Shown piece by piece: positions 4,149 through 23,508 of a stretch of 36,222 bases of DNA. Source of the DNA: Actinomycetota bacterium (lineage in GTDB: Bacteria > Actinomycetota > Humimicrobiia > Humimicrobiales > Humimicrobiaceae); assembly GCA_016870615.1 (NCBI GenBank), contig VGAZ01000007.1, positions 1-36,222 of the forward strand, written 5' to 3'. A program made the translations under genes and the position numbers. The first letter of the stretch is position 1. Each line of letters starts with the position of its first letter. The notes under the pieces are model-generated. The model was not told the origin of the DNA. It saw nothing but the letters and a program-made list of their open reading frames with translations, and ran no database searches.

Positions 4149-4194
4149 TATTTAATGTTTTTTATTCAAGCAGGATAGTAATAAATAAAAAATG

Positions 4195-4217
4195 GGAGGG
4201 CTAATATCTAGCCCTCC
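4195..4217 (+). promoter_or_regulatory. Strong intercistronic hairpin between binding protein and transporter ATPase genes
   Basis: GGAGGGCTA (4195-4203), loop ATATC, TAGCCCTCC (4209-4217) makes a perfect 9-bp GC-rich stem. The sequence after it is AAAACAG, so there is no T-run. A hairpin here is typical of transporter operons where the 3' end of the binding-protein mRNA is stabilised, or transcription partly attenuated, so that the binding protein is made in excess over membrane components. Confidence 0.6.
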
Positions 4218-4295
4218 AAAACAGTATTTTATTTGAAATGGATTATTACAGAATTTTAATCATAAATAACTAAATAAACTAAAGTGAGGCAAAAT

Positions 4296-5786
4296 ATGCC
4301 AGATAATGAAATATTAATGGAAATGTCAGGCATAACAAAAAACTTCCCGGGAGTTTTAGCGCTTGATGATGTCAGTGTAAGCCTTTATAAAGGTGAAATA
4401 CTGGGACTTCTGGGGGAAAATGGAGCAGGTAAATCTACACTTATAAAAATTCTTTCGGGTGCGTACATGCTTGAAAAAGGGAAGATAATTATTAAGGGAA
4501 AAGAGTGCAAATTTTTAAGTCCGCACGAAAGCTTAGCTGCTGGCATAAGGGTAATATACCAGGAATTGACTTCATTTGAACCACTGACTGTTCTTGAAAA
4601 TATTTTTGCCGGCGAGGTAGTTACGAATAAAGCGGGTTTTGTTTCCTGGAAAGAAATGGCTGCAAAATCAAAAAAAATACTTTCTATGCTTGGCTCGGAA
4701 ATAAATCCTAGTGAGCTTATGGAAAATTTAAGTGTAGGGCAAAAACAGATAGTTGAGATTGCAAAAGCCATTCACGGCAATGCAAAAATAATTGTAATGG
4801 ATGAACCAACATCTGCCCTTGATGAAAAAGAAGTGAACACCTTATACAGTGTAATTAGGAAATTAAGGGAACAAGGGGTGGGCGTTATTTATATATCACA
4901 CAGGATGGAAGAAATATTCCAGATAACCGACAGGGTGGCAGTGCTGCGCGATGGTAAAAAAGTGGGTGATATAAAAACACATGAAACAAATAAATTTGAG
5001 CTTGTAAATCTTATAGTTGGCCGGGAGCTTTCAGAGCAGTATCCCAAAAGGGATATTAAAAAAGGCAAAGTCATTTTTGAAGTTAAAGATCTCACTTATT
5101 TAAATAAAGTTAAAAATGTAAGTTTTAATCTCCGCGAAGGTGAAATTGTGGCTTTTTTTGGTCTTCTTGGTGCTGGAACTCATCAGCTATTTTCAGTAAT
5201 TTTTGGAGATAAAAAAGCAACAAGCGGGGAAATATATGTAGATGGGAGAATGATTAATGTTACAAATCCCAATATTGCAAAAAAAAGCGGGCTAGGGTAT
5301 ATCCCAATCGACAGGAAAGAAGAAGGATTGGCCCTTGTCATGGATTTAAAGCAGAATATAACTTCTGCAAATATTGAAGAGATGGGAGCTGGATTTATTC
5401 TAAATAAAAGAACTGAAAATGAGCATGCTACTAAATGGTTTAACACGCTTAATATAAAAGCTCCATCAATCGATACCCTGGCAGGCAGTCTTTCAGGAGG
5501 AAACCAGCAAAAAGTCGTCGTAGCAAAATGGCTGGAAAAGAATTCAAGAATACTTCTTATGAATGAGCCAACCAGGGGTATAGATGTAGGTTCAAAATCA
5601 GAGATCTATATGATTGCAGAGGATCTCTGTGAAAAAGGAGTTGGGGTGCTGATGGTCTCAAGTGAGCTTCCTGAGATTTTAGCAATATCTGACAGGGTCA
5701 TAGTCATGAGGGACGGTGAGATTGTCGGTGAATTTGTAACTAAAGATACAGACCAGGAAGAACTTATGCACCTGGCTTCCGCATAA
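4296..5786 (+). CDS. Sugar ABC transporter ATP-binding protein, RbsA/MglA type (two ATPase domains)
   Basis: A protein of about 496 residues with two ABC domains in tandem. Domain 1 has Walker A (GENGAGKST), signature LSVGQKQ and Walker B (IIVMDEPTSAL). Domain 2 has a degenerate Walker A (GLLGAGTHQL) but an intact signature LSGGNQQK and NEPTRGID, the asymmetry usual for the RbsA/MglA/XylG family. An in-frame GTG at 4284 could extend it by four residues, but GTGAGG is better read as the ribosome site for the ATG at 4296. It energises uptake through the two permeases encoded just downstream. Confidence 0.9.
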   Translation: MPDNEILMEMSGITKNFPGVLALDDVSVSLYKGEILGLLGENGAGKSTLIKILSGAYMLEKGKIIIKGKECKFLSPHESLAAGIRVIYQELTSFEPLTVLENIFAGEVVTNKAGFVSWKEMAAKSKKILSMLGSEINPSELMENLSVGQKQIVEIAKAIHGNAKIIVMDEPTSALDEKEVNTLYSVIRKLREQGVGVIYISHRMEEIFQITDRVAVLRDGKKVGDIKTHETNKFELVNLIVGRELSEQYPKRDIKKGKVIFEVKDLTYLNKVKNVSFNLREGEIVAFFGLLGAGTHQLFSVIFGDKKATSGEIYVDGRMINVTNPNIAKKSGLGYIPIDRKEEGLALVMDLKQNITSANIEEMGAGFILNKRTENEHATKWFNTLNIKAPSIDTLAGSLSGGNQQKVVVAKWLEKNSRILLMNEPTRGIDVGSKSEIYMIAEDLCEKGVGVLMVSSELPEILAISDRVIVMRDGEIVGEFVTKDTDQEELMHLASA

Positions 5787-8846: not shown

Positions 8847-10295
8847 ATGCAAAATGGATTTAAAAGAAGATTTGAGCCAATAAAAATACTGTCAAATAGC
8901 AATATTGAGCAAATCCACACAGCATCACTCGAAATACTTGAAGAGCTGGGTTTTAAGTATGAGTCAGAAAAAGCTTTAAAACTGCTTGAAGCACATGGAT
9001 GCAAAGTTGACTACACTACAATGGTAGCTAAAATTCCATCAGGTCTTGTTGAATGGGCGCTTGATAAAACGCCTTCAAGTTTTTTAGTACGCGCAAGAGA
9101 ACCTGAAAAAAGCCTCAGGATAGGAGGCAATACAATGTATTTTATGAATTCTACAGGAGCGAGGCACGTAAATATTGATACCGGGATTCTGACCACACCA
9201 ACTCTCAAGCAGAACAACATTGCAGTGCTTGTTTCAGATTCATTGGACACAGTACATGTCTTTCCCTCTTACACGCCATATTTTGAGATTGAAAATGTGC
9301 CGCCTGTTATGTCTTGCCCGGTATCCTGTGCACAGCGACACAGATTTTCAACAAAACCTTCAAGGGGAGCTACGGAGGCGGAAAGTTTTATTTGGGAAAT
9401 TAAAATAGCAGAGGTGCTGGATTGCCAGTTACTGGGGTTAATATGTGGGAACCCCCCTTTTTCTATGGGTAAAGACAATGCAAGCGCAGCTTTTGCGTAT
9501 TTAGATGCCGGTTTTCCGATTTATGTTGCCTCGGGTTCCCCATTGGGGAGCACAAGGCCAGTCACTGTAAGTGGGGGCATTGCCAGTTATAATGCAGAGC
9601 TGTTTGCTATCATTGTGCTGATTCAATGCATTAAGCCAGGCAGCGGAGTACTTGTTGATGACTCGATACTATCTTTGAATATGCAAACAGGAGACATGAA
9701 TTTTGGAACTGCAGCAACAGCAATGCAGCAAATGGCTTTTAACCAGATGTGGCACTCATTTTACAAAGTTCCCGTAAGCGATGTAGGGGCTGCATTTTCA
9801 AATTCAAAGATAATTGATTACCAACTGGGCGCAGAAAAATTACCTGTTGCAATGTGTTCCGCTCTATCCGGGGGAAATATAATAGTGCTGCATGGCGGAG
9901 TAACTGCAGAGCTTGCTTATAATCCGGTGCTTGCAATTATTGATGATGATATAGCCCGGACAATAGGCAGGATAATAGAAGGCTTTGATGTAAATGACGA
10001 TGCGATTGGGCTTAATTACATTAATGAAGTTGGTTTTACAGGATCTTTTTTATCAAAAAAACATACAAGGGCTTATTGGAAAACTGAAGATTATATGCCG
10101 AAAATATTTGACAAAACATCTTACAGCGAGTGGATCGATACAGGCAAAAAGACTGTTGTGGATAAAGCTAAAGAAAAATATGAAGATATTTTAGCAAATT
10201 ACAAACCAAAACCAGTAACAGATGAGCAGGACAAAGAAATTGATAAAATATTAAAAGAAGCTGAGAATTATTATAGGAAGAAAGGATTGCTTTAA
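8847..10295 (+). CDS. MttB/MtgB-family corrinoid methyltransferase (non-pyrrolysine), copy 1
   Basis: A 482-residue cytoplasmic protein of the trimethylamine methyltransferase superfamily (COG5598). The first characterised members move a methyl group from a methylated amine to a Co(I) corrinoid protein. The frame has no internal UAG, so it lacks the pyrrolysine of true MttB and belongs with MtgB-like enzymes for quaternary amines. It shares long blocks with the copies at 17611 and 19627: GFKRRFEPIK at the start, HGGVTAELAYNP and IIDDDIA near residues 350-370, and a YYRKKGLL tail. The ribosome site AAGAAAGGGG supports the start. Its position after an aldolase and before UroD-fold and isomerase genes suggests a substrate linked to sugar catabolism rather than plain betaine. 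Confidence 0.85.
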   Translation: MQNGFKRRFEPIKILSNSNIEQIHTASLEILEELGFKYESEKALKLLEAHGCKVDYTTMVAKIPSGLVEWALDKTPSSFLVRAREPEKSLRIGGNTMYFMNSTGARHVNIDTGILTTPTLKQNNIAVLVSDSLDTVHVFPSYTPYFEIENVPPVMSCPVSCAQRHRFSTKPSRGATEAESFIWEIKIAEVLDCQLLGLICGNPPFSMGKDNASAAFAYLDAGFPIYVASGSPLGSTRPVTVSGGIASYNAELFAIIVLIQCIKPGSGVLVDDSILSLNMQTGDMNFGTAATAMQQMAFNQMWHSFYKVPVSDVGAAFSNSKIIDYQLGAEKLPVAMCSALSGGNIIVLHGGVTAELAYNPVLAIIDDDIARTIGRIIEGFDVNDDAIGLNYINEVGFTGSFLSKKHTRAYWKTEDYMPKIFDKTSYSEWIDTGKKTVVDKAKEKYEDILANYKPKPVTDEQDKEIDKILKEAENYYRKKGLL

Positions 10296-10405
10296 CATTA
10301 GATAGTTATTTTAGGAATAAAAAGATTTCAAGGTTTCAGGAACCTGGGCAGGTCTTAGATTAAGAATAAGAAAAAATATTTTATTAAACCACAAGGAGAT
10401 ATCAG

Positions 10406-11419
10406 ATGAACTCTCTTGAAAGAGTAATTTTAGCGCTTGAACGAAAAATACCCGATAGGGTGCCCCATTTTGAGCTTGAGGTATCAAGCAGCGTAATTCG
10501 TGAGATTATAGGTGACGGTGATATATTTGATTTGGCTGAAAAACTTGACCTGGATGCCGTCTCTCCAAGGGTAAACCAGAAAAGGCAGAAGATTGATGAG
10601 AATACATTTATCGACGAGCGGGGGCTCATGGTAAAAAAAACCACCCAGGACTATCTTGAGCCTGTAAATACTGTGATTAAAAATGAGGCGGATTTAAGAA
10701 AATTTGAGTTTCCTGACCCTTATGCGCCGCACAGGCTTGATGGTTTAAAAAAAGCCATAGAAAGATTTAAAGGCAGGAAGGCAATTATATCTTTACTAAG
10801 AGACGGGTGGTCAGAGGTCAGGGATCTGCATGGTTTTTCTGAGTCTCTGATAGACATGGTTGACAATCCGAAGCTTATTAAAGGCATTATGAATAAAGCT
10901 GTTGAATACTATATTGAACTCGGCAGGCTGTCTGCAGAACTAGGAGCAGAAATAGCATTTTCGGGAGATGATATTGCAGGCAATAATGGTCTTCTTATGA
11001 GCCCGGCCCATTTTAAGGAGTTTATATACCCCGCAATGAAAAGGATTTATAAAAAGTGGCACAGTTTTGGGCTATATATTATTAAGCATTCTGATGGAGA
11101 CCTGAATAAAATAATGGACCTGCTCATTGACACGGGGCTTGATTGCCTTCATCCCATAGATCCACTTGCAGGCATGAGCCTTGAAAAAGTAAAGAAGGAT
11201 TACGGCAGAAGGATATGTATTATGGGTAATGTAAACTGTGCAGGCAATTTGGTGTATGGAACTGAAGAAGATGTTGTAAACGAGGTAAAAAAATGTATTG
11301 AAGTTGCAGCACCGGGTGGAGGGTATATATTGTCTTCAAGCAATATAATACCAAACAGTGTTAAGCCGAAGAATTATCTTGCAATGGTAGCGGCAGTGAA
11401 GCAATTCGGGGTTTATTGA
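10406..11419 (+). CDS. UroD-fold (uroporphyrinogen decarboxylase family) methyltransferase-like protein 1
   Basis: A 337-residue TIM-barrel protein of the UroD superfamily. Beside corrinoid proteins this fold usually means a methyltransferase (MtaA, MtbA, CmuA and, as I recall, MtvB/OdmB-type O-demethylases) rather than haem synthesis. Visible blocks are HSDGDLNK, GLDCLHPIDP and MGNVNC. The HxCx(n)C zinc motif of MtaA is replaced by HSDGD, so coenzyme M methylation is unlikely. AAGGAG lies just before the ATG. The gene is the first of a pair with the UroD-fold gene at 11542. It may carry out the demethylation step or pass the methyl group on; which one cannot be decided from sequence. Confidence 0.75.
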   Translation: MNSLERVILALERKIPDRVPHFELEVSSSVIREIIGDGDIFDLAEKLDLDAVSPRVNQKRQKIDENTFIDERGLMVKKTTQDYLEPVNTVIKNEADLRKFEFPDPYAPHRLDGLKKAIERFKGRKAIISLLRDGWSEVRDLHGFSESLIDMVDNPKLIKGIMNKAVEYYIELGRLSAELGAEIAFSGDDIAGNNGLLMSPAHFKEFIYPAMKRIYKKWHSFGLYIIKHSDGDLNKIMDLLIDTGLDCLHPIDPLAGMSLEKVKKDYGRRICIMGNVNCAGNLVYGTEEDVVNEVKKCIEVAAPGGGYILSSSNIIPNSVKPKNYLAMVAAVKQFGVY

Positions 11420-11541
11420 AAAAGCAATTATTTATCAATTGGCAAGCCCTAAAAGGAGTCTAAGATGTAATGATACTTAGTTAGTAATTTTTAATTGATT
11501 ATGGTTTTTGTTTATCATTTTTTTATTAAGGAGTTAAAAAT

Positions 11542-12645
11542 ATGCTGAATTCAAAAACAATCGAACCTTTTAATGGTTCTCCTGACATAGAAAGACTGCT
11601 TGCAGCTTTTAAACGTAAACCCGTGGACAGGGTTCCTAATTTTGAGATACTTTATGAAGATAAACATGTAGAAAAACTGCTTGGCAGATATGCCGGAAAT
11701 ACACTGGCATATGGCGGAGACCCTGCAAAAGGTGCTGATGCTGACCAGGGGCGGCCCATGTACCCTGATGACTTTCTTGACTTTTGCGAAATAATTGGCC
11801 AGGATGCTATGCTGATAGGGTCCTCGCTGTGGGTGCCTTTTATGAGGTTGAACGAAGACGGCAAAAAGATTAATGCTTATGACAGGAAAGTCAGGACTGC
11901 CCAGGATTTCAGCAAAATTATTATTGACTCAGACACGCAAATCTCAGAAACAATAAAATACCTGAAGGAATATAAAGATGCTATTGAAAAAAGAAATTCA
12001 CGCATAGGTGTGGGAGTTATATGCGCCAGCATAACCCAGACACTATATGAGTTTGTTGTAGGAATGAATGATTTTATGATGATGGTGTATGAAAACCGTG
12101 ACCTGGTGGAGGATTTGCTGGAAGTGTCAACAATACACTCTGTAAAAATGATCCAGGCCCTTGTTGAAAATAGCGTAGATTTTATATTTGCTGCAGATGA
12201 TGTTGCATTTAAATCCGGTCTTTTTATCCCTCCGAAAATAATGAAAGAAATATGGGTCCCAAGGATGGCACGCATATTTGAACCTGCATTAAATGCCGGG
12301 GTCCCAATAATGTTTCATTCCGACGGCAAAATCGATGATATGGTTGAGGACCTTATAGACATCGGGCTTGATTGTCTTAATCCAATGGACCCATACGGAG
12401 CAGACTACAGGGAATACAAAAAAAGGTATGGCAGCAGGCTCTGCCTGTCAGGCAATGTGGATATCGAGTTCCCACTTTCAAAGGGAACGCCTGAAGATGT
12501 GGATGCCGATGTAAAGGCTCATATGGACGTTTTAAAGCCTGGATATGGTTATGTCGCAACGGTGTCACATTCAGTAGTAAATTATATACCCCATGAAAAC
12601 GTAATAGCCTATATAAATGCAATACACAAATATGGGGCATATTAG
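11542..12645 (+). CDS. UroD-fold methyltransferase-like protein 2
   Basis: A 367-residue UroD-superfamily protein and paralog of the preceding gene. It shares FHSDGK, DIGLDCLNPMDP, YGSRLCLSGNVD and a C-terminal helix ending HKYGAY. The N-terminal part before the barrel is longer than in the first copy. As in copy 1 the HxC zinc motif is not present. AAGGAG lies upstream of the ATG. It is followed after 76 bp by the full fucose-isomerase-like gene. Having two adjacent, clearly diverged UroD paralogs argues for two related substrates or for separate demethylase and methyl-acceptor roles. Confidence 0.75.
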   Translation: MLNSKTIEPFNGSPDIERLLAAFKRKPVDRVPNFEILYEDKHVEKLLGRYAGNTLAYGGDPAKGADADQGRPMYPDDFLDFCEIIGQDAMLIGSSLWVPFMRLNEDGKKINAYDRKVRTAQDFSKIIIDSDTQISETIKYLKEYKDAIEKRNSRIGVGVICASITQTLYEFVVGMNDFMMMVYENRDLVEDLLEVSTIHSVKMIQALVENSVDFIFAADDVAFKSGLFIPPKIMKEIWVPRMARIFEPALNAGVPIMFHSDGKIDDMVEDLIDIGLDCLNPMDPYGADYREYKKRYGSRLCLSGNVDIEFPLSKGTPEDVDADVKAHMDVLKPGYGYVATVSHSVVNYIPHENVIAYINAIHKYGAY

Positions 12646-12721
12646 AAGAAATAAAGAATTATTTTTAAAAAAAGGTTTTTATTTCTAACTTAAATTATTA
12701 ATAATTACAAAGGAGTGCAAA

Positions 12722-14137
12722 ATGGAAAAATTAAAAGTCGGATTTGTTGCAGGCTTTATGGAAGGTTTTTCAACAAAGGGGCTTGATTATTTTAAGGCAT
12801 ACCAGAAAGAACTTGCAAAAATGGCAGATAAATATGGTTTTGAACTGCATGTGATCGATATAATAATGCAGAATATTGAGCAGGCCTCAAACATAAGAAA
12901 AGAAATAGAGGCAAAACAGCTTGATTTTGTACTTTTTTTCCATCCCTCATACATAATAGGCGACAATGTATTTGAAATAATGAAATCTGGAAAGAATTTC
13001 GGGCTATGGGCAATTGAGGAATTAAGCCCTACCGGTCCTATGACATTTGGTTCTTTTGTAAATATCTCCCAGAACATAGGTATATCAAAACATAATTTTC
13101 TTGCAAAACCCCTAAAGACCAAGTGGTTCTTTGGAGACATGGAAAGCAAGTTCTTCAAGAACCGGTTTGACATTACAATAAAAGCTCTTACTGCAGCCAA
13201 AGCCATGAAAAATGCAAGAGTGGCACAAATTGGCAAGCTTGCAGATGGCCACATAAACCACATGGCAAACCCAAGAGCAGTATACCAGTACCTTGGTGTT
13301 GATGTGACAAGAGATTATGAAGTAGAGGATATAATATCGCTTGGTGAAAAAATAACTGCTGCAGAAGTTGACAAAGTATTTAAAGCTGTAAAACAAGCTT
13401 CAAAAATAAGCCGTGTATCAGAAGATAAAGTGCGGGATTCTGTAAAGATGTATCTTGCTATAAAAAAAATCTGTAATGAGAACAATTACAGTGCAGTGGC
13501 ATTCAGCTGCTGGCCAAAGCTTATGCCCCTAAAGGAAATGGTAGGATGCCTTACAAACTCATTGTTAAACAGTGATGGAATTGCTGCAGGTTGTGAAGCA
13601 GATATATTGGGTACAATTTCAATGCTTGTGCTACAGAAACTTACAGGGGCTCCTGTGGCACTGATGGATCTTCCCAAGTTTGATGAAAACGATGAATCAC
13701 TGCTGCTGTGGCACTGCGGTTCCGCTCCATTTGAAATGGCCAACGAGCAAGGCGTTATGTGTGAGAAGCATTATTTTGCAGATTATGCTGAAAGCGTCAA
13801 GAATTGCGGGCCCATAACTGACCTTATATTCAAAAAAGGAGATGTTACAGTATTCAGGCTAGCAGGTGAAGGTGAGCAGTTCTATTATGTTACGGGTAAA
13901 TTTTTTGACCCGGAAAAACAAGCATTCTGCGGAAGTAGGGGATGGGTAAACCAGCTAAAGTTCTATGAGGAACCAATAAAAGCATGGGATTTAGCAAATA
14001 CATTATTAGAGAATGGTCTTCCCCACCATTTCCCGATGGTTATGCAGAATGTAGGACCTTATCTTGAAGAGTTTGCTTACTGGACAGAGCTTAAAAAAGT
14101 GAGAAGATATGATTACAGGGATTACCTCTATGTTTAG
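12722..14137 (+). CDS. L-fucose/L-arabinose isomerase-like protein (full length)
   Basis: A 471-residue protein with a Rossmann-like N-terminal half (VGFVAGF at the start, FFHPSYI near residue 77) and a C-terminal half with NSLLNSDGI, GCEAD and LLWHCGSAP. The overall plan matches fucose/arabinose isomerase-like proteins that interconvert aldoses and ketoses, but it is shorter than classical FucI (about 590 residues). The ribosome site AAAGGAG precedes the ATG. It is a close paralog of the partial gene at the left edge, so the island carries two forms of this enzyme about 12 kb apart. It lies between UroD-fold genes and a creatininase-family gene. The substrate is inferred only. Confidence 0.72.
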   Translation: MEKLKVGFVAGFMEGFSTKGLDYFKAYQKELAKMADKYGFELHVIDIIMQNIEQASNIRKEIEAKQLDFVLFFHPSYIIGDNVFEIMKSGKNFGLWAIEELSPTGPMTFGSFVNISQNIGISKHNFLAKPLKTKWFFGDMESKFFKNRFDITIKALTAAKAMKNARVAQIGKLADGHINHMANPRAVYQYLGVDVTRDYEVEDIISLGEKITAAEVDKVFKAVKQASKISRVSEDKVRDSVKMYLAIKKICNENNYSAVAFSCWPKLMPLKEMVGCLTNSLLNSDGIAAGCEADILGTISMLVLQKLTGAPVALMDLPKFDENDESLLLWHCGSAPFEMANEQGVMCEKHYFADYAESVKNCGPITDLIFKKGDVTVFRLAGEGEQFYYVTGKFFDPEKQAFCGSRGWVNQLKFYEEPIKAWDLANTLLENGLPHHFPMVMQNVGPYLEEFAYWTELKKVRRYDYRDYLYV

Positions 14138-14175
14138 GGGACACCCTTAAGCAAAGGAAAGGAACGATTGTAAAA

Positions 14176-15006
14176 GTGAAAATTAATTTTGAGCAAATGC
14201 GCTCCCCGGAAATAGAACAATTTATAAATGATGGCGGAATGGTTATAGTCCCGATTGGCGCCTGTGAGGTGCATGGAAGGCACCTTCCTGTGATAACTGA
14301 TACAGAAATGGCATACTCTGCAGCAGTTGATGCTGCCCGTAAAATTTCTGGAAAAATACCGGTATCAGTTCTTCCAGCAGTCTGGTTCGGGTATTCTGTC
14401 TCAATTTTAAAAAACTGGCCGGGCACTATAACAATAAGGCCAAAAGTGCTTATAGACCTTATGTATAATATCTGCCAGTCGCTTATAGACATGGGTATAG
14501 ATAAAATACTTATTGTAAATGGCCATGGCAATAATCCTGGCGTGCTTGATGTAGTTGTGCGCACAATAGGGGATGATTTTAAAGTATTTGCAGGCATTAC
14601 CAATATTTTTGACTGCTGGGACAAAGAATATGTCAAACAAAACCGAAAGTCAGAATTAGGCGGCATCGGCCATGCATGCGAGATTGAAACCTCGGTTATG
14701 CTTCATCTGGACAAAAAACTTGTTGATATGTCTGTAGCAGATGACACTGATATAATGAAAAGCGATCTTAATACATGCCCGGTGGATTGGGGTTCAGGTA
14801 AAAAACGGAAGATGTATCTTTCAACCTGGTATCTTGAAAACAGCACATACGGGGGAGCAGGAGATCCTACTTATGCAACAGAAGAATTTGGCAAAATAAT
14901 GCATGAAATGACAGTAACCGGATTATGTGAGGTAATAGAGGAATTCTATAAAACCCAGAATGAACTCAAGAACCGTAAGTTAAAAAGGAAATGCCAGAAG
15001 TTTTAA
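14176..15006 (+). CDS. Creatininase-family metal-dependent amidohydrolase
   Basis: A 276-residue protein, probably starting at a GTG. The metal-site pattern of the creatininase family is intact: E31, H33 and H36 in EVHGRHLP, D42 in TDTE, NGHGNN at 115-120 and GHACEIET with H166 and E169. Members hydrolyse cyclic amides such as creatinine. Others open non-nitrogen rings: inosose hydrolase IolN of the Thermotoga inositol pathway and formamide hydrolases of flavin synthesis belong here. In this sugar context a lactone- or inosose-like ring opening, or release of a sugar from an N-methylated group, is plausible. The gene follows the isomerase by 38 bp and precedes the third UroD-fold gene. Confidence 0.78.
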   Translation: MKINFEQMRSPEIEQFINDGGMVIVPIGACEVHGRHLPVITDTEMAYSAAVDAARKISGKIPVSVLPAVWFGYSVSILKNWPGTITIRPKVLIDLMYNICQSLIDMGIDKILIVNGHGNNPGVLDVVVRTIGDDFKVFAGITNIFDCWDKEYVKQNRKSELGGIGHACEIETSVMLHLDKKLVDMSVADDTDIMKSDLNTCPVDWGSGKKRKMYLSTWYLENSTYGGAGDPTYATEEFGKIMHEMTVTGLCEVIEEFYKTQNELKNRKLKRKCQKF

Positions 15007-15085
15007 GGCAATATGATGATGATTTGTTTTTTCAAGATATTATTAATAAACTACAGCAGCAGTTCTTATTAAAGGAGCCTACTGG

Positions 15086-16246
15086 ATGGATTCAAGGCAG
15101 AAATTTTTATCAGTAATGAATTTTGATGAAAATGCATTAATACCGAAAACAGAATTTGCATACTGGGCAGGGACAATCAGGAAATGGTTCAGCCAGGGCC
15201 TGCCAAAAATAAAGGATGTTTCAGAGGAGATTCTGGATCCTGAATCCATAAGAGGTTCAAAACCTCTGACCTTGAAATATGCAGATGAAGTTGATAACAA
15301 TGTGGCGCCTTTTTTTAAACTTGATTCATATCTTGAAAAATTCCCCATTGACTACAGCTCGATGATGCAAAGCAGGGTTCTTGAGGAAAACAACGAATAC
15401 AGGATTTTTGTTGATAAATACGGCCTGACAAATAAAGTCCTGAAGCAGAAATCTTCTATCCCAATGGTAATAGATTACCCGATAAAAAACAGGAAAGATT
15501 TTTATGAGTACGTCTCATTATATGATAACTCCAGTGGTGGAATAGCCAAAAGGTTGCCTGCGGATTTTAATAACCTTGCGGCGGAACTGAAAAACAGAGA
15601 TTTTCCTATAAGGCTCGGGGGTAATCCTTTCGGTTTTTCATTTCTTGCGCGCCACCTGATGGGAGAAGTAACTTTCATGCTTAGCATGTATGATGACCCG
15701 GAATTCATAAAAGAGTTTAATGAATATTTCCTGAATTTTACAATAGATTACTGGTCAGAAATTCTTAGAAAAGTCGAGGTTGACTGTGTATTTATACTTG
15801 AGGACATTGCATACCGCTCGGGATCATTTATATCAAAAGAGATGTTTGACACTTTTATGCGCCCGTATTATTTGAAGCTTATAGATTTTTTAAAACAGTA
15901 TAGTATAAACAACATTTTTGTTGACTGTGACGGATTAATTGGGGAACTCATACCACTCTGGATTGAGGCCGGGGTTACCGGGCTTTTTCCGTTTGAAGCT
16001 GTAAATGATATTGTAGCTGTTAGAAATGAATATCCGCATTTAAAAATGATGGGTGGGTTCAATAAAAAAGTCCTTTTTAAAGATTCTACAAAACAGGAAA
16101 TTGACGGGGAGCTCGGCAGGGTTTTTACAGTATTGAAAAGCGGGGGTTACATACCGCATATTGATCATGCTGTTTCTGAAGATGTGACATGGGAGAATTT
16201 CAGGTACTACAGGGAAAAGCTGAACAGCTTTATAGATAAAATTTAA
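15086..16246 (+). CDS. UroD-fold methyltransferase-like protein 3 (divergent)
   Basis: A 386-residue member of the UroD superfamily, clearly different from the two copies at 10406 and 11542. The HSDG block is replaced by VDCDG (near residue 278), and GNV by MGGFNKK. It has the N-terminal EFAYWAGTI and YGLTNK region seen in many UroD-like proteins next to corrinoid genes. AAAGGAG precedes the start. The replaced metal or corrinoid-contact residues suggest another substrate or acceptor from those of the first pair. It is followed by a RhaM-like mutarotase and then the first corrinoid protein, so it could be the direct partner of the protein at 16798. Confidence 0.72.
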   Translation: MDSRQKFLSVMNFDENALIPKTEFAYWAGTIRKWFSQGLPKIKDVSEEILDPESIRGSKPLTLKYADEVDNNVAPFFKLDSYLEKFPIDYSSMMQSRVLEENNEYRIFVDKYGLTNKVLKQKSSIPMVIDYPIKNRKDFYEYVSLYDNSSGGIAKRLPADFNNLAAELKNRDFPIRLGGNPFGFSFLARHLMGEVTFMLSMYDDPEFIKEFNEYFLNFTIDYWSEILRKVEVDCVFILEDIAYRSGSFISKEMFDTFMRPYYLKLIDFLKQYSINNIFVDCDGLIGELIPLWIEAGVTGLFPFEAVNDIVAVRNEYPHLKMMGGFNKKVLFKDSTKQEIDGELGRVFTVLKSGGYIPHIDHAVSEDVTWENFRYYREKLNSFIDKI

Positions 16247-16300
16247 TTTATTATTAATATAGTACTCAAGGATTTTAATAATAAGAATTGGAGGTAAAAT

Positions 16301-16648
16301 GTGAACAGATACTGTATAGTTCTAGAACTGAAAGATGAATTCATAGAGCCATATTGTGATATTCACCGTAATCCCTGGCCGGAACTGCTTAAATCAATAA
16401 AAGACGGGGGAGCAAAGGAACTGCTGATTTGGAACTACAAGAATCTTTCAATTGTCTATTATGAGTGTGAAGACATAGATAAATTGTATGAAGGGCTTAA
16501 TAAGCTTGAAGTTACAAAGAAATGGAATGTTACAGTAGGGCCATGGTTCAGGAAATCCCTTCCTGTTGATGAAGACGGAAAATTTATAACCTGTGAAAAA
16601 ATATTTGATTTAAACCAGCAGATTGCAGGAAAACTTGAGCAGTACTAA
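16301..16648 (+). CDS. L-rhamnose mutarotase (RhaM) family protein, copy 1
   Basis: A 115-residue ferredoxin-like-fold protein of the RhaM/DUF718 family, which speeds alpha-beta anomer exchange of deoxysugars before isomerisation. Y18 and H22, the residues I remember as the active-site pair in E. coli RhaM, are both in place (EPYCDIH), as is a Trp after them (W26) and a W in KKWNV. Translation starts at GTG 16301 after GGAGGT; the overlapping ATG at 16299 reads straight into TGA and cannot be the start. Found between UroD-fold and corrinoid-protein genes, it ties the methyltransferase set to a deoxysugar. A second copy is at 19143. Confidence 0.75.
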   Translation: MNRYCIVLELKDEFIEPYCDIHRNPWPELLKSIKDGGAKELLIWNYKNLSIVYYECEDIDKLYEGLNKLEVTKKWNVTVGPWFRKSLPVDEDGKFITCEKIFDLNQQIAGKLEQY

Positions 16649-16797
16649 AAGATGATTGATTACAGCATATTTCCTGGATAATCGGTTCTTTTTATAAATT
16701 TACCAGCCATATATTTTGAACTGATATCCTTTATCCGTAATTATTTTTAATTTTAAAAATTTATTTAAAATGTTTATCAAAGAAAGGAAAAACATAA

Positions 16798-17436
16798 ATG
16801 CCTTCATTAAAAGAAATACACGATGCTGTTGCTTCAGGAAATTATAAAGATATAGGCAATCTTGTCCAGGGTGCAATAGACAGTGGAGAAACACTTGAAA
16901 ATATAATAAACAATGCTCTTTCGTCTGCAATGCTGGAGGTAGGGGATAAATTTGGTTCGGGCGATCTTTATATGCCTGATATGCTGCTTGCTGCAAAAGC
17001 AATGAAGGTCGCAATGGAGATAATAAAACCATTGCTTAAGGGTTCAGAACACCTTTCGGAAAAGGGCACTGTTGTTATAGGTACAGTTAAAGGGGACCTT
17101 CATGATATAGGAAAAAACCTGGTTATTACTATGGCGGAAGGGCAGGGTTTTAAAGTTATTGATCTGGGCATAGATGTTGATTTCCAGGTCTTTGTAGATG
17201 CGATTAAAGAACACAATCCCAATATTGTTGCATTTTCCGGACTTCTTACAACTACCCTTGCAAATATTCCCGAGCACATCAGGGCAATAGAGGATGCCGG
17301 GTTAAGAAAATCAGTCAAACTGGCTGTTGGCGGTGCCCCTGTAACACAGCACTTTGCAGATATGTATGGAATAGAAATATATTCTCCTGATGCGTCAGGG
17401 GCCGCTAAAGAGTTTTTAAAGGTATTAAATAAGTAA
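16798..17436 (+). CDS. Corrinoid (B12-binding) methyltransferase protein, MtgC/MtbC-like, copy 1
   Basis: A 212-residue soluble protein of the dimethylamine/glycine betaine corrinoid-protein family. Residues 1-85 form the helical cap domain. The Rossmann B12 domain follows, with D100-L-H102-D-I-G105, where H102 is the lower axial cobalt ligand, then SGLLTTT (147-153) and VGGAPV (177-182). It would accept a methyl group from an MttB- or UroD-type enzyme on Co(I) and hand it on. AGAAAGG precedes the ATG. The next gene is an MttB-family protein, the standard pairing. A reductive activator (RamA-like) would be needed to rescue Co(II), but none is seen in this window. Confidence 0.92.
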   Translation: MPSLKEIHDAVASGNYKDIGNLVQGAIDSGETLENIINNALSSAMLEVGDKFGSGDLYMPDMLLAAKAMKVAMEIIKPLLKGSEHLSEKGTVVIGTVKGDLHDIGKNLVITMAEGQGFKVIDLGIDVDFQVFVDAIKEHNPNIVAFSGLLTTTLANIPEHIRAIEDAGLRKSVKLAVGGAPVTQHFADMYGIEIYSPDASGAAKEFLKVLNK

Positions 17437-17495
17437 AATACTGGATTTTTAAAGTATTGGGCCCATAGGGCCAGGGGATTTAAAGGTGCCTTTAA
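17437..17495 (+). promoter_or_regulatory. Three consecutive hairpins after corrinoid-protein gene
   Basis: Directly after the stop codon there are three inverted repeats in 59 bp: AATACT/AGTATT (17437-17458), GGCCC-ATA-GGGCC (17460-17472) and TTAAAGG-TG-CCTTTAA (17480-17495). No T-run follows. The array may stabilise or process the corrinoid-protein mRNA, or be part of the leader of the next methyltransferase gene. Confidence 0.4.
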
Positions 17496-17610
17496 TATGA
17501 TTGCTGGTACTAGGGTTTTTATTTAATAAACTTGCTGTTTTAAGTGGGCGATTCACAAAGTTTATTATTAAATGACTTTACGAAACAATAATTGCAGGAG
17601 GAGGCAGTAA

Positions 17611-19062
17611 TTGCGAAAAGGATTTACAAGAAAATTTGAACCTTTAAGGGTGTTATCCGATTCCCAGGTCGAAACCATCCATAAGAGAACCCTCGAAGTG
17701 CTTGCAGAGGTCGGCTGTAAATTTGAATCTGTTCGCGCCCTTGAACTGCTGAAGAAAAACGGTTGCAGGATTGATCTGGAGCAACGGCTGGCATATTTCC
17801 CCCCGGACCTTGTAGAAAGCAGTATCAGAATGTGTCCCAGCAGTTTTTTGGTCAAATCCAGGGATCCAAAAGATAACCTTCTTATAGGCGGGAATACCCT
17901 GTATTTTATGTCGTCGCTTGGTGCAAGATTATCTGATATTGAAACCGGCATGGTGAGAGTGCCTACAATGGAAGAAAATAACCAGGCTATATTTATATCG
18001 GATGCCCTGGATTCAATAGACCTTTACAGCGGTTATACGCCATATTTTGAGATAGAGGGTGTGGAACCAGTCATGCTCTGTTCAACAAGCCTTGCAATGC
18101 GGATTCGCAATTCTACAAAAATTACAAGGGGCACCCAGCCCACCGACACGTTTATCTGGGAGACTCTCATTGCCCAGGCTGCTGGCCAGGAACTTATCGG
18201 CAATATGGAAGCCGCTGCTCCTCTTTCCTATCCTGAGGATGCAATAAATGCCGCTTATACATATGTTGAAGCAGGATTTCCTGTATATATTGCAGCAGGT
18301 TCAGTCATGGGCGGAACTGCACCGGTTACTGTTGCGGGTTCTACTATAAGCAATAATGCTGAGCTTCTTGCGGCTATAGTATTTATACAGTGTATTAGAC
18401 CGGGCACAGGCATTATTGCAAATGATTGTGTATTTCCAATGAATATGGAAAGCGGGGATTTGTTTTTCTGTTCACTTGGGTCAAGCCTTCACCAGATGGC
18501 ATTTAACCAGATATGGCATGATCTTTACAGGATTCCTACCAACAATACGGGTTCAGCATTTCCTAACTCAAAAAAAGCTGATTATCAGAGCGCCTATGAG
18601 AAAACGCATGTTGCTATGGCGTCAGCTCTTTCAGGCGCAAATATGATTGTATTTCATGGCGGGGTTACTGCCGAGCTTTCATATAATCCTGTCCTTGCAA
18701 TAATAGATGATGATATTGCAATGACAATAGGAAAGACAATAGAGGGCTTTGAAGTGAGTGAAGATACAATGGCAGTAGATATTATAAAGGATGTTGGAAC
18801 TGTCCCCGGGACATTTCTAAATAAGACGCATACAAGAGAATGGTGGAAAAAAGAATATTTTTTACCGAAATCTGCGGACAGGCTTTCATATCCCGAATGG
18901 CTCAATTCAGGACATAAAGGGGCAATAGATAAAGCCAGGGAAAGGATGGAGCATATCCTTGCCACCCATAAAGTAAAACCTTTAAGCAGCGATACCGACA
19001 GGGAGTTAGATAAAATACTTAACGATGCGCGAAAATATTACAGGGATAAAGGGCTGCTTTAA
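17611..19062 (+). CDS. MttB/MtgB-family corrinoid methyltransferase (non-pyrrolysine), copy 2
   Basis: A 483-residue MttB-superfamily protein with a TTG start, chosen because AGGAGGAGG (17596-17604) stands six bases before it and the N-terminus (RKGFTRKFEPL) matches the other copies. There is no in-frame UAG. The C-terminal region HGGVTAELSYNP, IIDDDIAMTIG and YYRDKGLL is almost the same as in copy 1, so the two probably bind similar substrates. It follows a corrinoid protein and precedes a RhaM-like mutarotase. Its role is to transfer a methyl group from a small methylated compound to that corrinoid protein. Confidence 0.87.
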   Translation: MRKGFTRKFEPLRVLSDSQVETIHKRTLEVLAEVGCKFESVRALELLKKNGCRIDLEQRLAYFPPDLVESSIRMCPSSFLVKSRDPKDNLLIGGNTLYFMSSLGARLSDIETGMVRVPTMEENNQAIFISDALDSIDLYSGYTPYFEIEGVEPVMLCSTSLAMRIRNSTKITRGTQPTDTFIWETLIAQAAGQELIGNMEAAAPLSYPEDAINAAYTYVEAGFPVYIAAGSVMGGTAPVTVAGSTISNNAELLAAIVFIQCIRPGTGIIANDCVFPMNMESGDLFFCSLGSSLHQMAFNQIWHDLYRIPTNNTGSAFPNSKKADYQSAYEKTHVAMASALSGANMIVFHGGVTAELSYNPVLAIIDDDIAMTIGKTIEGFEVSEDTMAVDIIKDVGTVPGTFLNKTHTREWWKKEYFLPKSADRLSYPEWLNSGHKGAIDKARERMEHILATHKVKPLSSDTDRELDKILNDARKYYRDKGLL

Positions 19063-19142
19063 TCCTGGTTTTCCTTTGTTTGATTTATATTATGCGGTAC
19101 TTTTGAAATAATCCGTTTTGTAATCATAAGGCAGGAGGTTCA

Positions 19143-19481
19143 ATGGAAAATACATGTGTTTATATGAAAATAAAGCCTGAAGGCAGGGAAGGTTATATCA
19201 ACATACATAAAAAAGGCAATGTGTGGAAAGAAGTGCTTGAAAATCTGAAGAATGCAGGCTTTAAAAAAATGAAAATATATATGCTTGATAATTATGCAGT
19301 GGTATATATTGAAGCTGAAAACATTGCAAAGGCTTTCAAATATCTTGGAAAGCAGCCAGATACATCCAGATGGAATGAAGCCACTTCAGCATTTATGGAA
19401 ACCCAGCCTGACTATGATTCCGAAGAAGTTGTTAAACAGCTTGAATGCGTTTTTAATTTTGAAAATGGAGTCCAGAAATAG
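19143..19481 (+). CDS. L-rhamnose mutarotase (RhaM)-like protein, copy 2
   Basis: A 112-residue protein of the same fold as the one at 16301. It keeps Y18 and H22 (EGYINIH) and a Trp after them (W28), but the rest has diverged strongly. GGCAGGAGG stands just before the ATG. It lies between MttB copies 2 and 3. If active it would exchange anomers of a deoxysugar or methylated sugar. Alternatively, members of the dimeric alpha-beta barrel superfamily can act as small binding proteins. Family assignment is less certain than for copy 1. Confidence 0.6.
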   Translation: MENTCVYMKIKPEGREGYINIHKKGNVWKEVLENLKNAGFKKMKIYMLDNYAVVYIEAENIAKAFKYLGKQPDTSRWNEATSAFMETQPDYDSEEVVKQLECVFNFENGVQK

Positions 19482-19521
19482 GTTCTATTCAGCTGGTTTT
19501 CAACCCTTAAAGGAAGAATAT

Positions 19522-19593
19522 ATGAGAAAGAGATTTACAAAGGAAAAAAGCATGGGGACTGTCCCCAAAAAGCATGGGGACTGTCCCCGATGA
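19522..19593 (+). pseudogene. Truncated duplicate of mttB start (23 codons)
   Basis: A short frame with its own ribosome site begins MRKRFTKEK, matching MRKGFTRKI at the start of the MttB-family gene at 19627. It then runs into the GGGGAC repeat and stops at TGA 19591. It looks like the broken front end of an mttB-type gene or a duplicated leader. It could be translated as a 23-residue peptide and compete with or feed ribosomes to the real start, but a passive remnant is simpler. Confidence 0.45.
19545..19588. repeat. Two tandem 22-bp copies carrying GGGGACTGTCCCC palindrome
   Basis: Two exactly identical 22-bp units abut each other (19545-19566 and 19567-19588). Each contains the 13-bp palindrome GGGGACTGTCCCC (19554-19566 and 19576-19588). 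The form resembles the GGGGAC-type REP palindromes scattered in many bacterial genomes. Only two units and no spacer, so it is not a CRISPR. Confidence 0.85.
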
Positions 19594-19626
19594 ATAACCA
19601 GTTTTCAGTCCGGAAAGGAAGAATTT

Positions 19627-21078
19627 ATGAGAAAGGGATTTACAAGGAAAATAGCGCCGGTTAAAGTACTTTCTGATACCCAGATTGAATATATACACAA
19701 CTCCTCTCTTGAAGTACTTGAAAAAACAGGTGTAAAACTTGAAAGTGAAAGAGCCTTAAAAATACTAAAAGAAAACGGGTGCATTATTGATTTTGAATCC
19801 AAGATTGCAAAGTTTCCAGGCTGGCTCGTTGAAGAATCTGTAAGGAGGGCGCCCTCCAGCTTTTCAGTAAAAGCGCGCATACCTGAAGACGACTTGAGAA
19901 TAAGTATGTCAAACCTTTATTTTATGCCTGCAGCAGGGGCAAAACTCCATGACGAAAAAACAGGCAGTCTATCTGTTGCAACACTCAAAGAGAATGACCA
20001 GGGCGTTAAAATATGCGATGGTCTAGATGCTGCTGATTTCCAGGCATCATATTGCCCTTATTTTGAACTTAAGGATATTGAACCTGTAATGCTTCTTGCG
20101 GAAAGCCAGGCAAGTATCGCTCGTAATTCTACAAGAGTGTCAAGGGGAGCGCAGGCTACTGATTCATTTATATGGGAAGCCCAAATAGCGAATGCTGCCG
20201 GCAAGCAGCTGATAGGCACCATGGAGGGGGCAGCCCCTCTTTGTTTTCCTGAAGACGCGGTCAATGCCGCATTTGAGTATATGGATAATGGTTTTCCCAT
20301 ATGGGCAACAGGAGGCTCTATAATGGGCGGAAGCTCGCCTGTCACTATTGCAGGCGCAACAGTGACAAATAATGCTGAAATACTTGCAGCAATAACTTTT
20401 ATACAATGCTACAGGCCGGGGAATGCAGTCCTTGCAAATGATTTTGTAGTACCGATGGACATGGAAAGCGGCAACTTGTTTTTCGGTGCAATAGGGGCCG
20501 GCTTTCACCAGATGGCGTTTAACCAGATATACAGGGAGCTTTACCGCATACCGACATGCAACGCTATGGCGGCATTTCCCAATTCAAAGCTTATTGATTA
20601 CCAGAATGCTTTTGAAAAAACGCATCTTGCCCTGTCTGCAGCACTTTCTGGTGCAAGCATGATTGCATTTATAGGTTCTGTGAGCCAGGAGCTTGCATGG
20701 AGCCCGCTGCAGGCTGTTATTGATAATGATGCTGTGAATATAATTGGCAGATATATAGAAGGATTTGAGATAAATGATTTGACAATTGCATCTGATCTTA
20801 TAGCTGAGGTCGGCCCGTCTCCGGGTTCATTTTTGGGTAAAAAACACACAAGGGAAAATTGGCGACGGGAATCTTATATCCCTAAAACATTTGACAGGCT
20901 GTCTTACCAGGACTGGGCACGCTCAGGAAAACCTTCTGTCATTGATAAAGCAAGGAATAGTGTTGAGGAAATAATAAAAAAACACAGACCGCAACCTTTA
21001 TCAGAAACCCAGGAGAATCAAATCCAGGGAATTCTAAAAGAAGCAAGGAAGTATTATGAAAAAAAAGGTTTACTCTAA
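19627..21078 (+). CDS. MttB/MtgB-family corrinoid methyltransferase (non-pyrrolysine), copy 3
   Basis: A 483-residue paralog of the proteins at 8847 and 17611, starting MRKGFTRKIAPVKVL and ending YYEKKGLL. It has no in-frame UAG. In the conserved C-terminal region it departs from the other two: HGGVTAEL is IGSVSQEL, and IIDDDIA is VIDNDAV. These changes fall in a block that is nearly invariant between copies 1 and 2, so a different methyl donor is likely. AAAGGAAG precedes the ATG. A corrinoid protein follows after 103 bp and is probably its partner. The 5' end is preceded by a duplicated start region and REP-like repeats. Confidence 0.87.
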   Translation: MRKGFTRKIAPVKVLSDTQIEYIHNSSLEVLEKTGVKLESERALKILKENGCIIDFESKIAKFPGWLVEESVRRAPSSFSVKARIPEDDLRISMSNLYFMPAAGAKLHDEKTGSLSVATLKENDQGVKICDGLDAADFQASYCPYFELKDIEPVMLLAESQASIARNSTRVSRGAQATDSFIWEAQIANAAGKQLIGTMEGAAPLCFPEDAVNAAFEYMDNGFPIWATGGSIMGGSSPVTIAGATVTNNAEILAAITFIQCYRPGNAVLANDFVVPMDMESGNLFFGAIGAGFHQMAFNQIYRELYRIPTCNAMAAFPNSKLIDYQNAFEKTHLALSAALSGASMIAFIGSVSQELAWSPLQAVIDNDAVNIIGRYIEGFEINDLTIASDLIAEVGPSPGSFLGKKHTRENWRRESYIPKTFDRLSYQDWARSGKPSVIDKARNSVEEIIKKHRPQPLSETQENQIQGILKEARKYYEKKGLL

Positions 21079-21181
21079 TTAATTACTGCTGGACTAATTG
21101 TTATTTTACAATATTAACAATTTTTTGAGCAAAACTTTAAAGTTAAATTGTTTATAAAAAATAAGAAAGGAAGTTAAAAAG

Positions 21182-21829
21182 ATGGCAGACTCAATACAAA
21201 GCTTAAAAGATGTAGTACTGGATTTTGATATTGACAGAGCTGAAGAAGTTGCAAGAAATGCAATAGATTCAGGCACTGATCCTCTTCTTGCAGCTGCAGC
21301 TTTAACAGATGCAATTAGACAGGTTGGTGATGCATTCGGTAAAGGGGATTTATTTTTGCCAGATCTTGTATGCGCATCTGAAGTATTGAAAAAGGCTTTT
21401 CCAATAGTTAATGATGCTATTGAAAAAAAAGGCGCAACACAGGAATCACTCGGCAAGGTAGTAATAGGTACAGTGTTTGGCGACATACATTCCATAGGAA
21501 AAGGAATGGTTTCCACACTCTTGTATGCTGCCGGCTTTAAGGTAATTGACCTTGGCATAAATGTTAAGGGGGAAGATTTCTTGAAAGCTGTAAAAGATGA
21601 AAACGCAAATGTGCTTGCTATGTCAGCCCTATTAACTACAACAGCCATGGAGCAGAAAAAAGTCATTGAGGGCCTTAAGGAGGCAGGGATAAGAGATAGA
21701 GTAAAGGTGGTGGTGGGAGGAAGTCCCATAAACCAGGAATTTGCAGACTCCATAGGCGCAGATGGTTATGGCTCAACTGCCCCCGAAGGAGTCAAGGTCG
21801 TAAAGAGGCTTCTTGGGATAAAGGACTAG
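21182..21829 (+). CDS. Corrinoid (B12-binding) methyltransferase protein, copy 2
   Basis: A 215-residue corrinoid protein with the same layout as that at 16798: helical cap (residues 1-90), D101-I-H103-S-I-G106 with H103 as cobalt ligand, SALLTTT near residue 143 and VGGSPI near residue 178. The two share family blocks but differ widely elsewhere, so they probably serve different methyltransferases: 16798 pairs with MttB 2 and UroD 3, and this one with MttB 3. AGAAAGGAAG precedes the start. The next gene is the rhamnulokinase-like kinase, about 200 bp downstream. Confidence 0.92.
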   Translation: MADSIQSLKDVVLDFDIDRAEEVARNAIDSGTDPLLAAAALTDAIRQVGDAFGKGDLFLPDLVCASEVLKKAFPIVNDAIEKKGATQESLGKVVIGTVFGDIHSIGKGMVSTLLYAAGFKVIDLGINVKGEDFLKAVKDENANVLAMSALLTTTAMEQKKVIEGLKEAGIRDRVKVVVGGSPINQEFADSIGADGYGSTAPEGVKVVKRLLGIKD

Positions 21830-21907
21830 CTGGGCATTGAGAGTATTTAAAAAATCCCCATATTTTTAGCAGAAGATAAAAATGTTGAAGGTTTCTTATT
21901 TAAGAAT

Positions 21908-21941
21908 TTAACTGTTTAATAAAAACTGCTTAATCAGTTAA
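21908..21941. promoter_or_regulatory. Inverted repeat in the kinase leader
   Basis: TTAACTG (21908-21914) and CAGTTAA (21935-21941) form a perfect 7-bp dyad with a 20-base spacer. It is followed by AT-rich sequence with a TATAAT at 21974-21979, although no well-spaced -35 box is seen. A separate promoter and operator for the kinase gene are possible. Confidence 0.3.
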
Positions 21942-22029
21942 AATCAATTCAGCTATTTGTTAGAATAGTAATATATAATTACAGGGTTGCGCATGTAAGA
22001 AATATTTCAAATATCTTATGGGAGGTAAA

Positions 22030-23508
22030 ATGGCAACAAAAAATTATCTTGTATTTGATTTCGGGGCAAGTAATGGGCGGGCTTCAGTAGCTGTTTTTGA
22101 TGGCAGCAAATTCGAATTTGATATAGTGCACAGGTTTGACAACATTCCGGTAAATGCCGCAGGCACCCTGTACTGGGATTTCTTAAGGCTTTTCGGGGAC
22201 CTCAAAACAGGTCTTTTGGCAGCAGCAAAAAAATACAGCCAGCTTCAGTCAATGGCAATTGATACATGGGGAGTTGATTTTGGAATTATTGATAAAAACG
22301 GAAAACTCATTTCAAATCCCATACATTACAGGGATGAAAAAAGAAACAGCATGACTGAAGAAGTCTTCGGCATTATAAGTAGGGAAGAGCTTTTCAAGCT
22401 CACGGGCTGCGCAATGCTCTCCTATTACAGTATTTTTAATTTGTATTCTTTAAAAATTCAGGAAAGCCCGGAATACCAGAATGCCGGCAAGCTTTTAATG
22501 ATGCCTGATCTTTTTAATTATTTCCTTACAGGAGTTGCAGTAAATGAATACACTGAGGCCCATACAACACTTATGTGCAGCCCTTTTACCAAAGACTGGG
22601 AGTTTAAAATAATAGATAAACTGGGATTTCCAACAGATATTTTCTCAAAAGTTATACAGCCAGGAACAGAAATAGCATACTTGCAGGAAAATGTCTGCAA
22701 AGAGCTGGAGATAAAACCTTTAAGGGTAATAGCCCCTGCCAGCCATGATACGCCCTCTGCCATTGCAGGCATACCTGTACCGGATAATTCCGGAAACCGG
22801 GTGTTTATGAGTATAGGCACATGGGGTGTAAGCATACTTGAAATGGATTCACCTTTAATTAAAACAGAAATACTGGATGCCGGATTTGCAAATGAAGCAG
22901 GCGCTGAAGGTAAAATGCTTCTGTTTAAGAACTTTGTAGGTATGTGGATAATACAGCAGTCCAGGAACTACTGGCTGAAAGATAAAAAAGACATTTCCTG
23001 GGATGACATTATGTACAGCGCAAAAGATGCAAAACCATCAGGGGCAATAATAAATGTGGATGATTCCGCATTTCTTCTTGGCCAGCATAATATGCCCCAA
23101 TTAATATGTGATTTTTGCAAAAAAACCGGACAAAAAATCCCGGAAGGCATTGGAGAGATTGCCAGGGTTGTTTACGAAGGTTTTGCTTTAAAAATAAAGC
23201 ATGATATTTTAAATCTTGAGAAAATAACAGGAAGCAAATTTGAAGCAATAAATATAGTCGGCGGCGGGACCAAGGACGAGCTATACTGCCAGTGGGCGGC
23301 AGATGCTAGCGGGCTTGAAGTTTTTGCTGGGCCTACAGAAACAACTTCTATTGGTAACCTGTTAATGCAGTTAAAGGCAGCAGGGGAGATTAAAAATCTT
23401 TCTGATGGCAGGCAGCTCTCACTTAACTCTTCAAAGATTAAGCAATACAGCCCGGCAGGCACAGCATATTGGGACAGCCAGTATGAAAAATACCTGAAAA
23501 TTCTTTAG
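22030..23508 (+). CDS. rhaB: Rhamnulokinase-like FGGY carbohydrate kinase
   Basis: A 492-residue FGGY kinase. The closest match by motifs is rhamnulokinase: VFDFGASNGRA at the N-terminus, IDTWGVDFGIID, NPIHYRDEKR, ASHDTPSAIAG, IGTWGVSILE and GGGTKDELYCQWAADASG. Rhamnulokinase phosphorylates L-rhamnulose on O1, giving the substrate for a class II aldolase such as that at 7832. The start is taken at 22030 because GGGAGGT just before it is the ribosome site; the in-frame ATG at 22018 lies before that site. FGGY kinases have relatives for fuculose, xylulose and autoinducer-2, so the exact ketose is not proven. Confidence 0.82.
   Translation: MATKNYLVFDFGASNGRASVAVFDGSKFEFDIVHRFDNIPVNAAGTLYWDFLRLFGDLKTGLLAAAKKYSQLQSMAIDTWGVDFGIIDKNGKLISNPIHYRDEKRNSMTEEVFGIISREELFKLTGCAMLSYYSIFNLYSLKIQESPEYQNAGKLLMMPDLFNYFLTGVAVNEYTEAHTTLMCSPFTKDWEFKIIDKLGFPTDIFSKVIQPGTEIAYLQENVCKELEIKPLRVIAPASHDTPSAIAGIPVPDNSGNRVFMSIGTWGVSILEMDSPLIKTEILDAGFANEAGAEGKMLLFKNFVGMWIIQQSRNYWLKDKKDISWDDIMYSAKDAKPSGAIINVDDSAFLLGQHNMPQLICDFCKKTGQKIPEGIGEIARVVYEGFALKIKHDILNLEKITGSKFEAINIVGGGTKDELYCQWAADASGLEVFAGPTETTSIGNLLMQLKAAGEIKNLSDGRQLSLNSSKIKQYSPAGTAYWDSQYEKYLKIL

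Follow-up and report, generated by a model that had tools for sequence, protein, structure and literature searches.

The 36,222-nucleotide stretch of DNA analysed here (the window) raises the question of how the gap between rhaM and mttB3 came to hold two gene starts separated by a tandem palindromic repeat, what kind of repeat this is, and whether it matters to the downstream gene.

Two palindromic units inside a duplicated gene start

The initial annotation had described two perfect 22-bp units lying between two imperfect copies of the mttB leader, and a 23-codon frame ahead of mttB3; these features were all found in the sequence (Table 1). The adjacent units are identical (AAAAAGCATGGGGACTGTCCCC), and each of them holds GGGGACTGTCCCC, which is palindromic at every position but the centre base. 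Five matches to this palindrome with at most 2 mismatches were counted in the window, against 0.16 expected. The flanking direct repeat is likewise real: copies A and B are 84% identical over 51 nt without gaps (19496-19546 versus 19601-19651), and when one gap is allowed the repeat extends to ...GGAAAAAAGC in copy A and ...GGAAAATAGC in copy B. Searched against the genome, copy A matched copy B best after itself (E = 2.3e-11); the next best match had an E value of 0.5. It should be noted that the match of copy A overlaps the first 7 bases of unit 1 (AAAAAGC). Copy A has drifted and carries an extra base that would shift the mttB frame. The 23-codon frame opened by its ATG is closed by a TGA at 19591-19593 and reads MRKRFTKEKSMGTVPKKHGDCPR. 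A search of plasmids with the rhaM-mttB3 site gave no match.

Table 1. Features at and around the rhaM-mttB3 gap, in window coordinates
Feature	Position	Strand	Remarks
rhaM, L-rhamnose mutarotase (upstream gene)	19143-19481	+	Pfam rhaM 4.4e-20; syntenic in G002
Copy A, duplicated mttB3 leader, ribosome site and first codons	19496-19551	+	
Copy A ribosome site AGGAAG	19511-19516	+	start codon at 19522
23-codon frame, opened by copy A, reading through both palindromes	19522-19593	+	absent in G002
22-bp unit 1	19545-19566	+	palindrome GGGGACTGTCCCC at 19554-19566
22-bp unit 2	19567-19588	+	palindrome GGGGACTGTCCCC at 19576-19588
Copy B, working mttB3 leader	19601-19655	+	core 40/42 identical to the single leader of G002
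Copy B ribosome site AGGAAG	19616-19621	+	start at 19627
mttB3, MTTB-family methyltransferase homologue, intact, 483 aa	19627-21078	+	Pfam MTTB 3e-70

Among the relatives, one genome of the same genus (G002) was syntenic and informative at this site. It has the gene order mttB2-rhaM-mttB3 seen in the window, and its rhaM-mttB3 gap measures 57 bases, compared to 145 in the window, with a single leader and no palindrome. Since this syntenic site is empty, the insert is lineage-specific and the arrangement is not a fixed leader. Over the leader core, copy B and G002 agree at 40 of 42 positions, copy A and G002 at 37 of 43, and copies A and B at 39 of 43. The closer agreement of copy B with G002, together with the drift of copy A, marks copy B as the working start and copy A as a decaying one. 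Moreover, certain leader bases and the second codon, AGA, are common to copies A and B but missing in G002. With copy B the closer of the two to G002, the duplication would most simply date after the split from this relative.

Dispersal of the palindrome and its place beside RAYT genes

The suggestion that the repeat recurs in the genome was borne out. A search by pattern only of the assembly to which the window belongs (93% complete, 235 contigs) recovered 13 exact copies of GGGGACTGTCCCC on 7 contigs, one to four per contig, and 0 copies of the pattern read backwards. These are solo dispersed copies, single or clustered. One-mismatch forms add further copies. Several of these stand at the extreme ends of contigs C17 and C37, so that the repeat itself seems to cause breaks in the assembly. 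The exact 13-mer was absent from 40 related genomes, where a one-mismatch search was dominated by chance matches in GC-richer genomes, and a text search of papers for the 13-mer found no mention of it.

Some of these places deserve description. The contig ends at L021 (G000:C17) 1-200 and at G000:C37:32-44 are built of GGGGACTGTCCCT units and repeated neighbouring sequence. At L020 (G000:C5), positions 1501-1580 hold GGGGACGGTCCCC followed by the variants GGGGACGGTTCTTTTG and AAGGGGACGTTTCC, inside a 478-aa open frame. At L013 (G000:C86), a palindrome copy (4447-4459) and a degenerate neighbour stand in frame within a glycosyltransferase gene (minus-strand frame 3997-5223, Pfam Glycos_transf_1 6.4e-29). 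The L013 copy was considered as a second empty-site comparison and set aside, as same-genus relatives carry other inserts of other lengths there, so that the point is a variable linker and no clean empty site.

The REP-associated transposase that the initial annotation had in mind did not turn up: Y1_Tnp and RAYT searches of the window's genome returned nothing, even at E <= 10. Its absence is not proven, given the 93% completeness of the assembly and the breaks at the repeat, in which some contigs end.

A search of GTDB genomes for GGGGACTGTCCCC occurring twice within 30 bases recovered such tandem pairs in at least 119 stretches from many phyla; among the matches listed, the hosts include Lachnospiraceae, Coriobacteria, Planctomycetota, Omnitrophota, Prevotella, Kiritimatiellae, WOR-3, Aminicenantes, Bacillaceae, Burkholderiales, Halomonas and others. 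The units directly adjoin a RAYT-like gene in four of these stretches, and the palindrome stands on both sides of the RAYT gene in L157, L156, L158 and L160, the last of these from Halomonas halodenitrificans. Two palindrome-adjacent proteins that were scanned matched Y1_Tnp (9.7e-14 and 6.8e-11) and the NCBIfam model REP_Tyr_transpos (NF047646; 1.9e-22, just under the cut-off, and 8.7e-18).

An alignment (A2) built from the four genes found beside the palindrome was then used as a query, and a RAYT-type Y1 transposase proved to be encoded in 44 of 49 motif-bearing genomes, compared to 75 of 296 genomes in an even draw from the window's phylum, a set of different taxonomy. As the query was seeded from palindrome-adjacent genes and RAYTs are common, the value of 44/49 shows presence more than enrichment. 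Where flanks were read, the palindrome lay within about 500 bp of a RAYT gene in 20 of 39 genomes, usually on both sides, and the reversed control gave 0; adjacency was compared here with pattern controls and not with each genome's own palindrome density. The flanks of 30 RAYTs from motif-bearing genomes contained 113 GGGGAC/GTCCCC hexamers versus 6 and 7 for two scrambled controls and 21 for the reversed hexamer, the latter partly because CAGGGG overlaps the motif's own context. For 30 RAYTs not picked for the motif, 23 hexamers were counted versus 6 and 7 (scrambled) and 10 (reversed). Palindromes upstream and downstream of a RAYT gene often have opposite orientations, with exceptions.

A single RAYT clade for the palindrome-flanked genes was rejected, since these are scattered on a tree of 100 RAYTs; they need 16 changes and are weakly clustered, 3 of 500 shuffles being as low. 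Four further RAYT loci (L174, L167, L176 and L180) are flanked by other GGGGAC-tagged repeats (GGGGACGGTTCC, GGGGACATTCC, GGGGACAGGTA and GGGGACGGATCT), which are perhaps sister repeat types.

Relation to TIRs and classical REPs

TIRYT genes are flanked by inverted repeats (TIRs) with a GGGGWSAS motif; some TIRs are self-complementary, and some families occur as solo, dimeric or grouped copies (PMC3733652). The window repeat resembles them in its motif and in its dispersed solo copies: GGGGACAG, on the minus strand of each unit, fits GGGGWSAS. The palindrome in other genomes also resembles TIRs in standing on both sides of a RAYT-like gene, often inverted. With GGGGACAG fitting GGGGWSAS, the repeat is best filed as solo TIR-type and not as a GT[AG]G REP, and the pair in the window is best taken for a solo array of REPs of this TIR type, placed where a gene starts. 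It differs from the TIRs of TIRYTs in that no transposase gene was found in the window's genome, and in that an identical 13-bp palindrome spans many phyla whereas TIRs are described genome by genome (PMC3733652).

Classical REPs and REPINs with their GT[AG]G-type RAYTs are likewise short dispersed palindromes, often paired, beside a Y1 transposase gene. The window repeat shares with them a dispersed palindrome that forms a stem-loop: as single-stranded DNA the two units fold into one strong hairpin (z -6.6), a single unit forming only 5 pairs. By contrast, the GT[AG]G tetranucleotide expected 0-2 nt 5' of the hairpin is missing on both strands of the unit, so that a canonical REP is ruled out by sequence; the pair in the window is a direct tandem and not an inverted one; and classical REPs are described as species-specific, which this palindrome is not. 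The entry of a REP-type element at the gene start, as first proposed, thus holds as regards dispersal, the local scar and the flanking of RAYTs elsewhere, but the element is not a classical GT[AG]G REP.

Most TIRYTs (20 of 26) have been placed in subclass 2.1 of the TnpA-Y1 proteins (RAYT group 1), near whose genes no REP-like sequences were found by automatic or manual search, and for which TIRs were discussed (PMC6006769). The motifs of this subclass, NHxH and YxxxNP, also occur in the palindrome-flanked proteins of alignment A2, as NHxH and YIxxNP, and some of these proteins end in a helix-turn-helix-like stretch, although HTH_29 in L092 was weak and below the cut-off. Unlike the situation reported for subclass 2.1, short palindromic arrays stand here beside many genes that are likely members.

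What is of interest in this repeat is its identity across phyla. Species-specificity has been ascribed to classical REPs, and a large transposase subclass is reported to lack REPs altogether (PMC6006769). Against this background, an identical palindrome next to likely subclass 2.1 proteins from many phyla is a concrete, testable candidate substrate for that subclass. We propose, tentatively and as a possibility that may well prove wrong, that GGGGACnGTCCCC is a palindrome spreading across phyla, recognised by many divergent subclass 2.1 RAYTs and able to promote duplication of adjacent DNA at its landing sites.

Origin of the double start and consequences for mttB3

Taken together, the dispersal of the repeat, the empty G002 site, the palindrome-RAYT adjacency in other genomes and the drift of copy A make it likely, with a probability of roughly 0.75, that a solo tandem array of this RAYT/TIRYT-associated repeat (GGGGACnGTCCCC) arrived after the split from the relative and that about 55 bp of the start were duplicated around it. 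The repeat would be moved or multiplied by a RAYT-type HUH transposase, not seen in the assembly, that cuts single-stranded hairpins. Once the array had reached the rhaM-mttB3 gap of this lineage, the mttB3 leader and first codons would have been duplicated on either side of it, possibly by template switching or break repair at insertion or, alternatively, by a tandem duplication whose junction holds the array. Since the match of copy A reaches into unit 1 (AAAAAGC), and since AAAGCA-like letters are seen again next to palindromes elsewhere in the window's genome, a template switch may have been guided by a short sequence identity at the joint. Copy B would then have kept the gene working, while copy A lost its function as a leader through decay, its 23-codon frame being a product of chance. 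The site would thus be a clear and recent case in which a repeat entered the start of a gene and, owing to the duplication of that start, left the gene unbroken.

That flank duplication might be typical of such arrays in general was rejected, as only 2 of 145 arrays gave a clear score, namely the window (39, shuffles at most 14) and L050 (29, shuffles at most 15). The flanking duplication is a private accident of the rhaM-mttB3 site and, given its rarity at other arrays, transposition alone does not explain the scar. The array of L050 (5668-5945, Actinomyces) lies between two direct copies of a sequence of about 40 bp.

The initial annotation had also considered a relic of an mttB duplication. 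On this view an additional mttB gene would have lost its body, leaving copy A as its remains and the palindromes where the deletion was joined, a reading that agrees with the three mttB paralogues of the region, with the MRKGFTRK start common to two of them and with the end of copy A at codon 9-10, where the repeat begins. It is nonetheless unlikely: copy A has no good match in the genome other than copy B, the stretch shared by the two copies includes non-coding leader missing from mttB1 and mttB2, and no extra gene is present at the G002 site. In appearance, the copies fit a short duplication confined to the gene start better than the remains of a second mttB gene. Two strain variants joined via the repeat by the assembler would be conceivable in a genome of 235 contigs, short repeats being prone to misjoining, but copies A and B show 16% divergence and one indel, copy A is no closer to G002 than copy B, and the flanking gene order agrees with that of G002, which makes such an artefact very unlikely.

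Slightly less likely even than a misjoin is a fixed regulatory leader whose hairpins and 23-codon frame control mttB3 translation or transcription. A ribosome site and a start codon do precede the frame and a strong RNA hairpin can form, but the fold of the whole-leader RNA is unremarkable (z -1.45) and terminator-like signals are confined to the minus strand. There is no support for a regulatory role, since G002 lacks the whole insert and its mttB3 is intact. The second ribosome site and the 23-codon frame that had been pointed out ahead of mttB3 are thus both present, with no evidence of a role. The array does not include the ribosome site of copy B, and the direct effect of the array on mttB3 is probably small or none. 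Least likely of all is a DNA-binding regulator that has the palindromes as its dispersed operators, for although an exact conserved palindrome occurs at several intergenic places, some copies lie inside coding frames (L013 4447, L020 1501), tandem runs vary in spacing, the 40 relatives have no exact copy, and the same 13-mer adjoins RAYT genes in unrelated phyla.

As for the gene itself, mttB3 belongs to a region of the window (8847-23508) that encodes three MttB homologues and corrinoid-type proteins, with rhaM, a sugar kinase and an ABC sugar transporter nearby, and that perhaps serves to demethylate a methylated sugar or some related substrate.
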